A stretch of DNA of 64,000 nt from positions 57,288 to 121,287 of the forward strand of contig JAIBEI010000033.1 of the NCBI GenBank assembly GCA_019459055.1. Reading direction: 5' to 3'. Position 1 is the first letter of the stretch. Each line of letters begins with the position of its first letter. The notes under the pieces were generated by a model. That model saw nothing but the letters and a program-made list of their open reading frames with translations. It did not search any database and was not told the DNA's origin. This DNA is from Thiobacillus sp. Its GTDB lineage: Bacteria > Pseudomonadota > Gammaproteobacteria > Burkholderiales > Thiobacillaceae. A program made the position numbers and the translations under genes. This document shows positions 34,453 to 39,070 of this stretch, one piece after another.

Positions 34453-35001
34453 TTAGTCCTTGAGGCGCGACGCATATTTTGCCTGCGCCTTCGCCACCTT
34501 CGGCGCCACCACGAACTGGCAGTAAGGCTGATGAGGGTTCTGCCCAAAATAGCCCTGGTGGTAATCCTCGGCGGGATAGAACGTCGTCGCCGCGGCCACT
34601 TCGGTGACGATGGGCGCGTCGAACTGCTGGGCTGCGGTGAGCCGGGCGATCACCGCTTCCGCTTCGGTTTTCTGCGCCGGCGTGTGCCAGAAAATCGCCG
34701 AGCGGTACTGGGTGCCGACGTCGTTGCCCTGGCGGTTGAGCTGGGTCGGGTCGTGCAGGGTGAAGAAGATTTCGAGCAGCTCGCGATACGAAATCACGTC
34801 CGGGTCGAAGCGCACCTGCACCACTTCGGCGTGGCCGGTGTCGCCGTTGCAGATGTCCGCGTAGGTGGGGTTCGCCGTGTGTCCGCCCATGTAGCCCGAC
34901 AGCGCGGATTCGACGCCGCGCAGCCGGTTGAACACCGTTTCGATGCACCAGAAACAGCCGCCTGCCAAGGTCGCTACTGCATGGGACATAGGCCCCTCCA
35001 T
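34453..35001 (-). CDS. msrA: Peptide methionine sulfoxide reductase A
   Basis: ATLAGGCFWCIETVFNRLRGVESALSGYMGG. Confidence 0.97.
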   Translation of the reverse strand: MEGPMSHAVATLAGGCFWCIETVFNRLRGVESALSGYMGGHTANPTYADICNGDTGHAEVVQVRFDPDVISYRELLEIFFTLHDPTQLNRQGNDVGTQYRSAIFWHTPAQKTEAEAVIARLTAAQQFDAPIVTEVAAATTFYPAEDYHQGYFGQNPHQPYCQFVVAPKVAKAQAKYASRLKD

Positions 35002-35153
35002 TAGGGAAGTACGCTCATTGATGGCGCCCCCCCGTCGGCATCAATGCGCCAAGCGGGAAACGTCAACCCCGGCGCGGGAAGCGCGTCCGACAGGAAGCTT
35101 ACAACAGCCGGAATTGATCCGGTCAGGTTTGCCCCAGCATTTCCTGGGGCTCC

Positions 35154-35186
35154 AAAAAACAAACCCCGCAACGGCGGGGTTTGTTT
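35154..35186 (-). terminator. Terminator at the end of the fcc operon
   Basis: AACAAACCCCGC...CGGGGTTTGTTT with minus-strand T-run. Confidence 0.8.
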
Positions 35187-35203
35187 GGCGCGTAAAGCAG
35201 AAA

Positions 35204-36499
35204 TCAGGTCGACATTTCGGTCAGGATGTTCTTCAACCAGCTTTCGGCATAGATCGCTTCGACCTCGGAGAGATCGGGAGAGACGCCAACCGAGCCCGGT
35301 ACCGCCTCGATGACATTCTTCTCCTTGTTCACCCGATAGACGCCGGTGACGCTAACGGCTTCCTTGGCTGACAGGTAGCTGTAACAGGTGTTGATACCGG
35401 ACATTTCGGTGATCTCTTTGCCGTTCATCAGTGCCACGATACTGCTGGCGCAGACCTTGCCTTCCGAGTTGGCCGAGTACCCAGACTTGGGCATGGCGCC
35501 GGCGATCGAGGAATCGCCGATGACATGGATGTCCTTGTGCAGGGTGGATTCGAACGTCATCGGATTGACCGGGCACCACTTCTTGTCGTCACCCACCAGA
35601 CCGGCGACGTGCGCAATATGACCGGCCTTCTGGGGCGGGATGAGGTTGATGACGGCGCCCCGGACTTCTTCGACGCCCTCGATCAGCACGGCCATATTCC
35701 GGGTATCCACTTCAGTGACCTTCTTGGCCGGACGGTAGTCGATGAGGCCATCGTAGTGCTTCTGCCAGCCCTTCATGAACAGGCCCTTCTTGGAAACGAT
35801 GTCCGGGTTGGCGTCCAGAATGATGACCTTGGAGCCTGGTTTGTGCTGCTTGAGGTACATGGCAATCATGCTGGCCCGCTCGTAGGGGCCGGGCGGACAG
35901 CGGAAGGGCGCCAGGGGAATGGAGATCACCACGTTGTCGCCCGGCTTCAAGGCTTCCAGTTGCTTGCGCAGCAGGATGGTCTGCGGTCCTGCCTTCCAGG
36001 CATGGGGCATGATTTCGGGCGTGGAGGCCATATCGTAGCCCTTGATCTCGTCGGTACGGAACTCAATGCCGGGAGAAACCACGAGGCGGTCGTACTTGAA
36101 GACGCCCTTGCTGGTCGTCACGCTGTGGCCCGCGGCGTCGATGCCGGTGACCTCGGCCTGGACCACCTTGATGCCGTGGTTGGCGGCCAGCTTGTCATAC
36201 TTGATGGTCAGCGGCGACAGGTCCTTCATCAGTCCGCCAAGATAGAGATTGGAGAACGGGCAGGACACGAAATGGTCGTTGCGTTCGATCAGCGTCACCT
36301 CGATGGACGGATCCATCATGCGAATGTACTTGGCGGCGATCGTGCCGCCGTAGCCGCCGCCGATCACCACCACCTTGCGTGTAGATGCGCTGGCAGGTCC
36401 ACGCTGTTGTGTGGCGCAACCGGCCAGCCCGGCGGTTGCGACGCCGGCACCGGCGCCGAGCAGCTTCAGGAAATTTCTGCGTTCCAGAGTCATGTTCAT
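35204..36499 (-). CDS. fccB: Flavocytochrome c sulfide dehydrogenase, flavin-binding subunit
   Basis: RRNFLKLLGAGAGVATAGLAGC Tat-like signal; KVVVIGGGYGGTIAAKYIRMMDPSIEVTLIERN; next to dihaem cytochrome. Confidence 0.9.
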   Translation of the reverse strand: MNMTLERRNFLKLLGAGAGVATAGLAGCATQQRGPASASTRKVVVIGGGYGGTIAAKYIRMMDPSIEVTLIERNDHFVSCPFSNLYLGGLMKDLSPLTIKYDKLAANHGIKVVQAEVTGIDAAGHSVTTSKGVFKYDRLVVSPGIEFRTDEIKGYDMASTPEIMPHAWKAGPQTILLRKQLEALKPGDNVVISIPLAPFRCPPGPYERASMIAMYLKQHKPGSKVIILDANPDIVSKKGLFMKGWQKHYDGLIDYRPAKKVTEVDTRNMAVLIEGVEEVRGAVINLIPPQKAGHIAHVAGLVGDDKKWCPVNPMTFESTLHKDIHVIGDSSIAGAMPKSGYSANSEGKVCASSIVALMNGKEITEMSGINTCYSYLSAKEAVSVTGVYRVNKEKNVIEAVPGSVGVSPDLSEVEAIYAESWLKNILTEMST

Positions 36500-36509
36500 T
36501 CCTCCCTTG

Positions 36510-37088
36510 TTATTTAACGCTAGCGTAGAAGTGCAAGAGAGCGTCCAGGTCTTCCTTGGACATCGGATCGACCTTCTCTTTCATCTTTTCCGGCATCTTG
36601 CGATGACCCGTCAGATAATCTGCCATCTGCATCTGCAGATACGTCAGCCACTGGCTGGCCATGACGGGGGTGTCGTCCTTGCCTTCCTTGCCGTCATCGA
36701 TATGGCAACGGCTGCAGTTGGCTTCCTGCAGGCTGGCGCCCCTGGCGACCTTCGCCGGGTCAAGGGACTGGTTCGTGGCATGGAACTTCTGCTTGGAGAA
36801 AAACTCGCCCATGGCGGCGATCTCGGCATCACTGTAACCCTTCGCCAGACGGCCCATGACCGATGCCGGGCGTGCGCCGCTCTTGAATTTCGTCATGGCG
36901 TCGACGATGGCTTCCTTCGACTGACCGGCCAGGCTTGGCATGCTCGGGCCGGCGCTGCCGCCGTTGGTACCATGACAGCCGGCACAGCCATTGGACAGCA
37001 TCGCCGCAGTTGGCGGTGCCGCCTGCGCCATTGCAGATATAGCCAGGACGCCGGTGGTCAGCGCCCATCCTCTCCACTTCATCGTCAT
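36510..37088 (-). CDS. fccA: Dihaem cytochrome c, FccA-like
   Basis: Signal peptide; two CxxCH motifs (CAGCH, CSRCH); adjacent to fccB. Confidence 0.85.
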
Positions 37089-37164
37089 TTTTTGTCTCCT
37101 CAGGTTTGATGAAAGTACTGCTCGCCCACGCACAGCGTAGTCAAAAACCAAAACCACTTTGCCC

Positions 37165-38064
37165 CTATTGCTTTTGTACGTCAATGTAGCTCTTCACGCC
37201 CGGATTGGGTTTGTCCAGCCCGAACTGGTAGCCCAGCGAAACAAAATGGAAGCGGGCGTCGGTGTAGTCCTCGTGAATCGCGAAGCCGAAGTTATATACC
37301 TTGTCGGCAGCAATGGCATGGTCGCCCTTGCCGCCGCCGGCCAAAGTGCGCTCGAGGGTCACCACCCACTTGTTGCCCTCCTTCTTGCCCTCCGCCTTGA
37401 CGAGCGCCTTGCCGCCTTCCATGTAACGGGATTCGGCGACATAACCGTCAACCGGCGTCTTTTCGCCACTGCGGTACTGCATCAGGTCCATGAACTTGCC
37501 GGAGGCAAGATTGCCGTTTTTGATGTACTTGGTCTTCTTTTCGTCCTTGGCGTTTTTCATGGTGCGCAGATCGCTGTGGCAGGTTGCCCAGCAGCCATTT
37601 ATTTCGGTGCCTTCGACCGTGCCGCCGCCGTCGAACATCATGGTCAGCTTGACTTCATTCTTCTTGTCGAGCTTCTTCGTGCCAATCTTGGGGGGCACCC
37701 ACTCGAAGCGGAAATAGATCTTGTCCCCATCATGCGCGGCCTGGAACGTCACCGGGATGGATCCTACCTTGCCGGCCGGAGGCGTCGGTTCAAGCACGGT
37801 CTTGGAACTGCCGACCGGCTTGCCGGCAACGATGTTGTCGCCGATTTCGTTGGCATCGCCTTCGTGGCACTTCGCACACGTGCGTTTCTTGTTCACGATG
37901 TCCGGTACCGCCGAGTGGTCAGGCTTGTTCATCACCCATTCAAGCGAGGCCTGGCCCGGATAGAACAAAGTCATCTTGCGCTGGGGAACCTTGCTCCAGT
38001 CCGGCGCTGCGGACACACCACCGGCGACCAGTGCGCCGGTTAAAAACAATGCGATCTTTTTCAT
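37165..38064 (-). CDS. Ethylbenzene-dehydrogenase-related haem-binding protein
   Basis: Signal peptide; [14 protein letters not shown] and [14 protein letters not shown]; 299 aa. Confidence 0.75.
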
Positions 38065-38134
38065 CTCTACGCTCCTTCAAATAATCCGAAAATGTATCGG
38101 CGGGCGGCTGCCGCACGTATTGACAGCATAGTCT

Positions 38135-38770
38135 TTACTGCGCCGCCGGGGCTGCTTGTTCCTGCTCCAGCAGCTGATGCACCGCCTTGTGGGCGATCCC
38201 CTTGTGGCAGTCGATGCACGTCATGCCGTCCTCGATGGCGCCTTCGTGCTTGACCACGGAGCGGTCCTTCTGCTTTTCCGGATCCATGGTATTGAAGTCG
38301 TGACAGTTGCGACATTCCTTCGAGTCGCGCTTCGCCATCTGCGCCCAGACGCGCTTCGCCATCACCAGGCGATGCGCCTCGAACTTCTCCGGCGTGTCGA
38401 CCGTACCCTTGATGTGCCCGATGATGTCGCGCGCCGCGATGATCTTTTGCATCGACTTGAACAGGTAGTCAGTAGGGGTCTTGCTGCTGGCGACATGGCA
38501 ATCCGCGCATTGCACTGTCGTCCCGCTGCGGTTCTTGTAATGGACAGTTTTCTTCAGTTCTTCGAAAGGAATAGTCATTTCATGGCAGGACATGCAGAAA
38601 TCCGAACGATTCGTATATTCCATGCCCATGTTGAGGGCGCCCCAGATGATCACGCCGCCCAGAATTCCGGCCACGACAGCGCCGGCCACGGTCATGCGCA
38701 AGCTCAGGCATTTCCTGAAACCCTTGCCTTCGGTTTTTTGAGCTTCTTTTTGAGCTTCGTCTGCCATCAT
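38135..38770 (-). CDS. NapC/NirT-family tetrahaem cytochrome c
   Basis: N-terminal TM; CMSCH, CADCH, CRNCH, CIDCH; 211 aa. Confidence 0.92.
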   Translation of the reverse strand: MMADEAQKEAQKTEGKGFRKCLSLRMTVAGAVVAGILGGVIIWGALNMGMEYTNRSDFCMSCHEMTIPFEELKKTVHYKNRSGTTVQCADCHVASSKTPTDYLFKSMQKIIAARDIIGHIKGTVDTPEKFEAHRLVMAKRVWAQMAKRDSKECRNCHDFNTMDPEKQKDRSVVKHEGAIEDGMTCIDCHKGIAHKAVHQLLEQEQAAPAAQ

Positions 38771-39007
38771 TCAATCCAAATGGTTCGTTGGCCGCAAGCG
38801 GCAAAACGTTTGATTCATTTCAAGTCAATGGATGCTTGCGAAACGCGCGCAGCATCCACCCATGCCGCCGACGTCTCACCGCATCCCAATGCGGCTTCCG
38901 TCTCAAAATTCCAGTATCAGCAAGAGGATAAAAGCATCCGCAAGACGATAAATGGTAATTCTAGGCCACATGAAATTGAAATAGTACTTTTGGAAGGGGT
39001 CTAAATT

Positions 39008-39070
39008 GCCGCGCAGCTGGTTGAACACCGTTTCAAGGCACCAAAAGCCGCTGCCGCCGGACAGGGTCGC
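39008..39070 (-). pseudogene. msrA 5' remnant
   Basis: Minus strand reads ATLSGGSGFWCLETVFNQLRG, close to the intact MsrA ATLAGGCFWCIETVFNRLRG at 34453-35001; no downstream MsrA sequence. Confidence 0.85.

Follow-up and report, generated by a model that had tools for sequence, protein, structure and literature searches.

A nirTB-like gene pair joined to fccAB in Thiobacillus sp. and a proposed route for sulfide electrons to quinone

In the window, a stretch of 64,000 nucleotides on contig 33 of a Thiobacillus sp. genome (2.93 Mb, 51 contigs), we identified a block of four minus-strand genes (38770-35204) which, going by sequence, is most aptly read as fccAB preceded by a nirTB-like pair. The block is conserved among betaproteobacteria, has paralogues in a nir cluster of the same genome, entered three Thiobacillus genomes horizontally and co-occurs with dsrA. 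We lean towards the view that it encodes a membrane-linked flavocytochrome c sulfide dehydrogenase (FCSD), in which the nirTB relay of nitrite-reductase operons would have been adapted as a sulfide:quinone route and run backwards. The component families are all known, and the combination and the proposed direction are new as far as we searched: in open-access full text, the part of the literature covered, we found no description of FccAB together with NapC/NirT/NirB or ethylbenzene dehydrogenase.

Gene content of the block

The ORFs and profile matches bear out the order given in an earlier note on this DNA, namely napC/nirT-type, PF09459, fccA and fccB, with 70, 76 and 10 bp between successive genes (Table 1). 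The four genes would form a single transcription unit. The terminator that the earlier note had placed after fccB is real by the fold test; it consists of a stem AAACCCCGC/GCGGGGTTT followed by a T run (-23.3 kcal/mol, z -4.3) and no shuffled sequence folded as well. A scan for promoter and terminator consensus sequences gave nothing beyond shuffle expectation, and the fccB terminator was absent from its output.

Table 1. Features of the block and its borders in the window
Feature	Position	Strand	Description
NirT-like	38135..38770	-	211 aa; four CxxCH; PF03264 209 bits
NirB-like (PF09459)	37165..38064	-	299 aa; PF09459 104 bits
FccA	36510..37088	-	192 aa; two CxxCH; dihaem; Sec signal peptide
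FccB	35204..36499	-	431 aa; PF21706 149 bits; PF09242 60 bits; Tat signal + lipobox
Intrinsic terminator after fccB	35151..35188	-	fold z -4.33; 0/200 shuffles equally stable
Presumed promoter/leader of operon	38771..38865	-	partly conserved with Sulfuritalea blocks
msrA 5′ remnant (insertion scar)	39008..39055	-	52-bp direct repeat

The first gene had been read as NapC/NirT-type with four CxxCH motifs, and this holds. In a profile search its product scored far above the PF03264 cut-off of 24.1 bits, and it has one N-terminal membrane helix as read from sequence, which together with the motifs places it in the NapC/NirT superfamily. The four CxxCH, a CxxCHxM and Lys109 are invariant across all homologues aligned. 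Against NCBIfam TIGR02161 (napC_nirT) it reached 207.7 bits, under the curated cut-off of 310.6, and on these scores it classes as a diverged branch and no equivalog of NapC or NirT. We propose this NirT-like protein as the quinone-reactive subunit.

The second gene was described in the earlier note as EBDH-related and haem-binding. The fold part of this description stood. An AlphaFold model of moderate confidence (pLDDT 79.7, pTM 0.83) found 2ivf_C, the gamma subunit of EBDH (PF09459), as the top fold in a Foldseek search of the PDB (E 6e-10), followed by NXR-C; a PDB sequence search yielded no relative. The identity as EBDH did not stand, and a NirB-type protein is the better description. 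A CxxCH (residues 63-67) and a CX3CH (158-163) are invariant in 82/82 homologues, so the product looks like a dihaem c-type cytochrome and not a haem-b EBDH gamma subunit, the model combining an EBDH-gamma/DOMON fold with c-type haem motifs. It is about 15% identical to EBDH gamma (PDB 2IVF chain C). Ethylbenzene dehydrogenase itself was considered and rejected: there are no Mo/Fe-S subunit genes in the block or among its immediate annotated neighbours, and the protein has c-haem motifs instead.

The nearest paralogue of this NirB-like protein in the same genome lies on contig 51, in a cluster nirS - napC/nirT - PF09459 - nirF. The block napC and PF09459 genes are 49-53% identical to these nir copies, and the loci whose PF09459 gene falls outside the fcc-linked clade mostly show the same nirS/nirF surroundings. 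In Stutzerimonas, nirTB lies directly downstream of nirS and encodes a tetrahaem NirT and a dihaem NirB, described as a relay from quinol to NirS (PMC13086519; PMC8954225). The two families and their order, NapC/NirT and then a PF09459 cytochrome, are the same in the cd1 nitrite-reductase operon (nirSTB) and in the block, and the pair appears to come from such operons. However, the block pair precedes fccAB whereas nirTB follows nirS, the block sequences form a separate clade, and the proposed direction is opposite. The NirB-like protein thus has the PF09459 fold, two c-haem motifs (from sequence) and an adjacent nirT-type gene, but is linked to fccAB instead of nirS; it may work like NirB, though the nir protein itself is a different one. 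In P. stutzeri RCH2, the second gene after nirS is annotated as 'ethylbenzene dehydrogenase' and its transposon fitness resembles that of nirS and nirF (PMC5554334). We infer that this gene is nirB, from its position and description and not from a protein alignment.

Two further contexts of PF09459 genes were seen. Some nir operons (L145, L154-L158) have the PF09459 gene right after nirS and no NirT gene in the stretch examined. In phototrophic Rhodocyclaceae, perhaps Rhodocyclus (L207, 7267-5941; L208, 5010-6359; L209; L210), the napC-PF09459 pair occurs in a third context; these genes were rejected as block members because the pair is an orphan, adjoined by neither fcc nor nir genes. Rhodocyclus is described as having NirB while nirS is missing (PMC8954225).

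The remaining two genes are what they had been taken for, an FccB-like gene and a dihaem FccA-like gene. FccB carries both FCSD domains (PF21706 and PF09242) and aligns end to end with 5n1t_A (E 6e-124) and 1fcd_A (E 1e-113). Its Cys80, Cys201 and Cys372 are conserved in all block members covering these positions; in the alignment with 1FCD, Cys80 corresponds to the FAD-linking Cys42, and Cys201/Cys372 to the redox disulfide Cys161/Cys337. FccA residues 26-190 match 3vrd_A (E 1e-42) and 1fcd_C (E 5e-40), and both its CxxCH are invariant among block members. With the FccB domains, the FAD-binding cysteine, the redox pair and a c-type haem subunit, FccAB of the block is by homology a real FCSD, sharing all these features with canonical FccAB (PDB 1FCD, 3VRD). 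It differs from the latter in its genetic tie to a NirT/NirB-like relay and in a predicted lipobox (GLAGC, Cys28) following the Tat signal, by which FccB is probably a membrane-anchored lipoprotein. A lipobox was found in 39/67 block FccBs against 7/30 stand-alone ones (p 0.002, for sequences that are not independent and with a pattern that missed two further possible lipoboxes in the stand-alone set). The lipobox was rejected as a diagnostic feature of the block, as it is enriched and yet about 40% of block FccBs lack it and some stand-alone FccBs have it; the enrichment serves as supporting evidence only.

The host genome has a second, stand-alone FccAB on contig 26 (L090, 6632-5262); it is 40% identical, its signal peptide is of the ordinary kind and its FccA match is shorter. 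FccB homologues are known in various roles, and with the contig 26 enzyme as a possible ordinary sulfide dehydrogenase, the block FccAB could oxidise other reduced sulfur (thiosulfate, polysulfide or persulfide) and pass the electrons through the relay. We regard this as improbable, as every FCSD active-site cysteine is retained and the top PDB matches are sulfide dehydrogenases.

Conservation, phylogeny and horizontal transfer

The search of the genome collection with the NirB-like protein recovered 80 loci. The 71 from betaproteobacteria all conform to the block; 65 have the full set of four genes, ordered as in the window and on a single strand, and the remaining six are cut by contig ends. 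The gaps between the genes range from a few to about 200 bp. Conservation beyond this strain, on which the earlier note had staked its reading, is therefore found in 65/71 betaproteobacterial loci, and the same content and order in so many related loci excludes a chance arrangement. The other nine loci, mostly from Gammaproteobacteria, carry napC and one or two PF09459 genes, with nirS in 8/9 within the stretch examined. Many Rhodocyclaceae-like blocks adjoin recurring housekeeping genes (coaBC-, dut- and radC-like, read by eye), which points to a long residence of the block in these genomes. That the four genes are mere neighbours without functional coupling seems the least probable of the readings considered; in the window, the 70 and 76 bp that separate napC, ebdh and fccA would leave room for internal promoters, but the order is kept across many genera and the genes moved as one block together with the terminator.

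Across the order (399 genomes), PF21706 was found in 195 genomes and close NirB-like relatives in 27. A napC gene adjoins one of the 39 other FccAB loci examined and is absent from the other 38, one locus that turned out to be a block having been left out of this stand-alone set. The exception (L212, 4621-7130), from another family of the order, reads napC - dihaem fccA - fccB without a NirB-like gene and is possibly an independent NapC-FccAB coupling.

In the NirB-like tree, 101 fcc-linked rows and two truncated rows form one clade (SH-aLRT 99) with the nir-linked rows outside. A 100/100 branch separates block from nir-linked sequences in the NapC tree, and in the FccB tree the block members cluster (100), a single stand-alone FccB forming the basal branch of this cluster. 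The window sequence groups with Sulfuritalea and Burkholderiaceae MAGs in a clade of ten rows (99) and not in a lineage specific to Thiobacillus. Among 117 genomes searched from the GTDB family, the block occurs in three, all of the same genus and 96-97% identical; other genomes of the family have the nir-linked copy alone.

The block is a horizontal insertion common to the three Thiobacillus carriers, since seven further members of the genus show the empty site, with a GST gene and msrA as direct neighbours (within about 170 bp), whereas the carriers have the block between these two genes. A 52-bp direct repeat (39008-39055 against 34915-34966, 86.5%, E 7e-12) flanks it; one copy is the msrA 5′ remnant upstream of napC and the other belongs to the intact msrA (35001-34453) downstream of the block. 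The same remnant arrangement is seen in the two other carriers. It seems to us an even matter whether a nirTB-type relay was recruited once to FccAB in dsr-bearing sulfur-oxidising betaproteobacteria and turned round towards quinone, the cassette later spreading horizontally.

Regarding the upstream region, stretches of 38-61 bp immediately 5′ of napC match those of L007-L010, L043 and L045 at 80-89%. The parts of the presumed leader conserved with the Sulfuritalea blocks include TTGACTYGAAAT... and GCCG-N4-CGGC. In the comparison of Thiobacillus with Sulfuritalea blocks, the presumed leader resembles the napC upstream region of L004, L007, L031, L034, L043 and L045, and its features are an inverted repeat resembling TTGACTCGAAATCAA and the stem GCCG-N4-CGGC. 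This inverted repeat and stem could be a regulator site, not of FNR type in most loci. An FNR-type box 5′ of napC (TTGAAATGAATCAA in the window) was dropped as a conserved signal, being present in 4/69 loci.

The occurrence of the block tracks dsrA. For a Rhodocyclaceae-like family, 220 genomes were counted, 33 of them encoding the block-type protein; dsrA was found in 32/33 genomes with the block against 17/187 others (Fisher p 6e-25, with genomes that are not independent samples). Counted by genus, it was found in 14/15 with and 5/50 without the block (p 3e-9). In these counts three fragmented genes were scored as present, and oxidative and reductive types were pooled. Genomes having the nir-linked copy alone contain dsrA at about the background rate. 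The host genome itself has two dsrA matches over the family cut-off (L190 and L191, contigs 28 and 51).

Proposed electron route and related systems

In the route that we favour, sulfide would be oxidised by FccB at the Cys201/Cys372 disulfide and the flavin, and the two haems of FccA would collect the electrons, both steps being proposed by homology to FCSD. The NirB-type dihaem cytochrome, our proposed link from FccA to the NirT-like protein, would carry them to this tetrahaem membrane protein, which would reduce ubiquinone. The relay step is suggested by NirT and NirB being a known pair and by the strict linkage of their block counterparts to fccAB. We infer the direction of the electrons, the reactivity with quinone and a physical complex of the proteins. 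Sulfide/S0 lies at about -270 mV and ubiquinone at about +100 mV, and the transfer from sulfide to ubiquinone is downhill; these potentials and the precedent of HURM are the ground for the quinone-reducing direction. In HURM, the hydroxylamine:ubiquinone module (HAO - c554 - cM552), a NapC-family cytochrome hands electrons of a dehydrogenase to quinone, and it may also run in reverse (PMC3701875). The likeness is by analogy, as each system lines up a dehydrogenase in the periplasm, an intermediate c-type cytochrome and a membrane cytochrome of the NapC family, but the dehydrogenase and substrate of the block are unrelated and its intermediate is NirB-like instead of c554. The earlier note had suggested a membrane-linked route from FccAB to quinone; this fits the conservation, the trees, the dsrA pattern and the nirTB paralogy, but the NirB identity and the origin in cd1 nir operons had been missed.

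The known nirTB relay works in the quinol-oxidising direction, which counts against the direction proposed here. The main rival takes this up: the NirB/NirT-like pair would act as a hub for electrons instead of reducing quinone, with FccAB feeding the NirB-like protein, which passes electrons to periplasmic acceptors (nitrite reductase, or cbb3 oxidase via small cytochromes c), and the NirT-like protein feeding in quinol electrons. The movement of electrons from quinol to NirS by the nir-context pair (PMC8954225), the NirB-like genes without NapC in some nir operons and the presence of nirS in the host genome speak for it. We nevertheless consider it unlikely, since all untruncated block loci have retained a NirT-like gene of their own and the second, nir-linked copy is missing from many block genomes. 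The NapC/NirT family being usually quinol-oxidising, the whole chain might also run from quinol through the NirT-like and NirB-like proteins to FccAB and reduce sulfur or polysulfide to sulfide. This is very improbable given the potentials above, as it would be strongly uphill from ubiquinol, and the block tracks dsrA (both types pooled) in sulfur-oxidiser lineages.

With sulfide electrons going to quinone, the net reaction of the block would be that of sulfide:quinone oxidoreductase (SQR). However, SQR is one flavoprotein that reduces quinone directly, whereas the block would need four haem/flavin proteins. FCSD is usually credited with a lower energy yield than SQR, as its electrons come in at the level of cytochrome c. 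The canonical enzyme has soluble cytochrome c as its acceptor, and the energy difference is commonly drawn between Sqr and Fcc (PMC4288042). The gain from the proposed route would be an entry of sulfide electrons before the bc1 complex, or their push back to NADH, instead of an entry at cytochrome c. If this is true, FCSD gains the energy yield of SQR via quinone, and a dedicated quinone relay would overturn the view of FCSD as a low-yield enzyme in Sulfuritalea-like and other Rhodocyclaceae and in some Thiobacillus. It would also bear on the reduction of NAD for CO2 fixation in these sulfur oxidisers. The NirTB pair would be given a role beyond nitrite reduction, which is relevant to the function of NirB in Rhodocyclus (PMC8954225), and the block would exemplify the re-use of a respiratory relay between the nitrogen cycle and the sulfur cycle.
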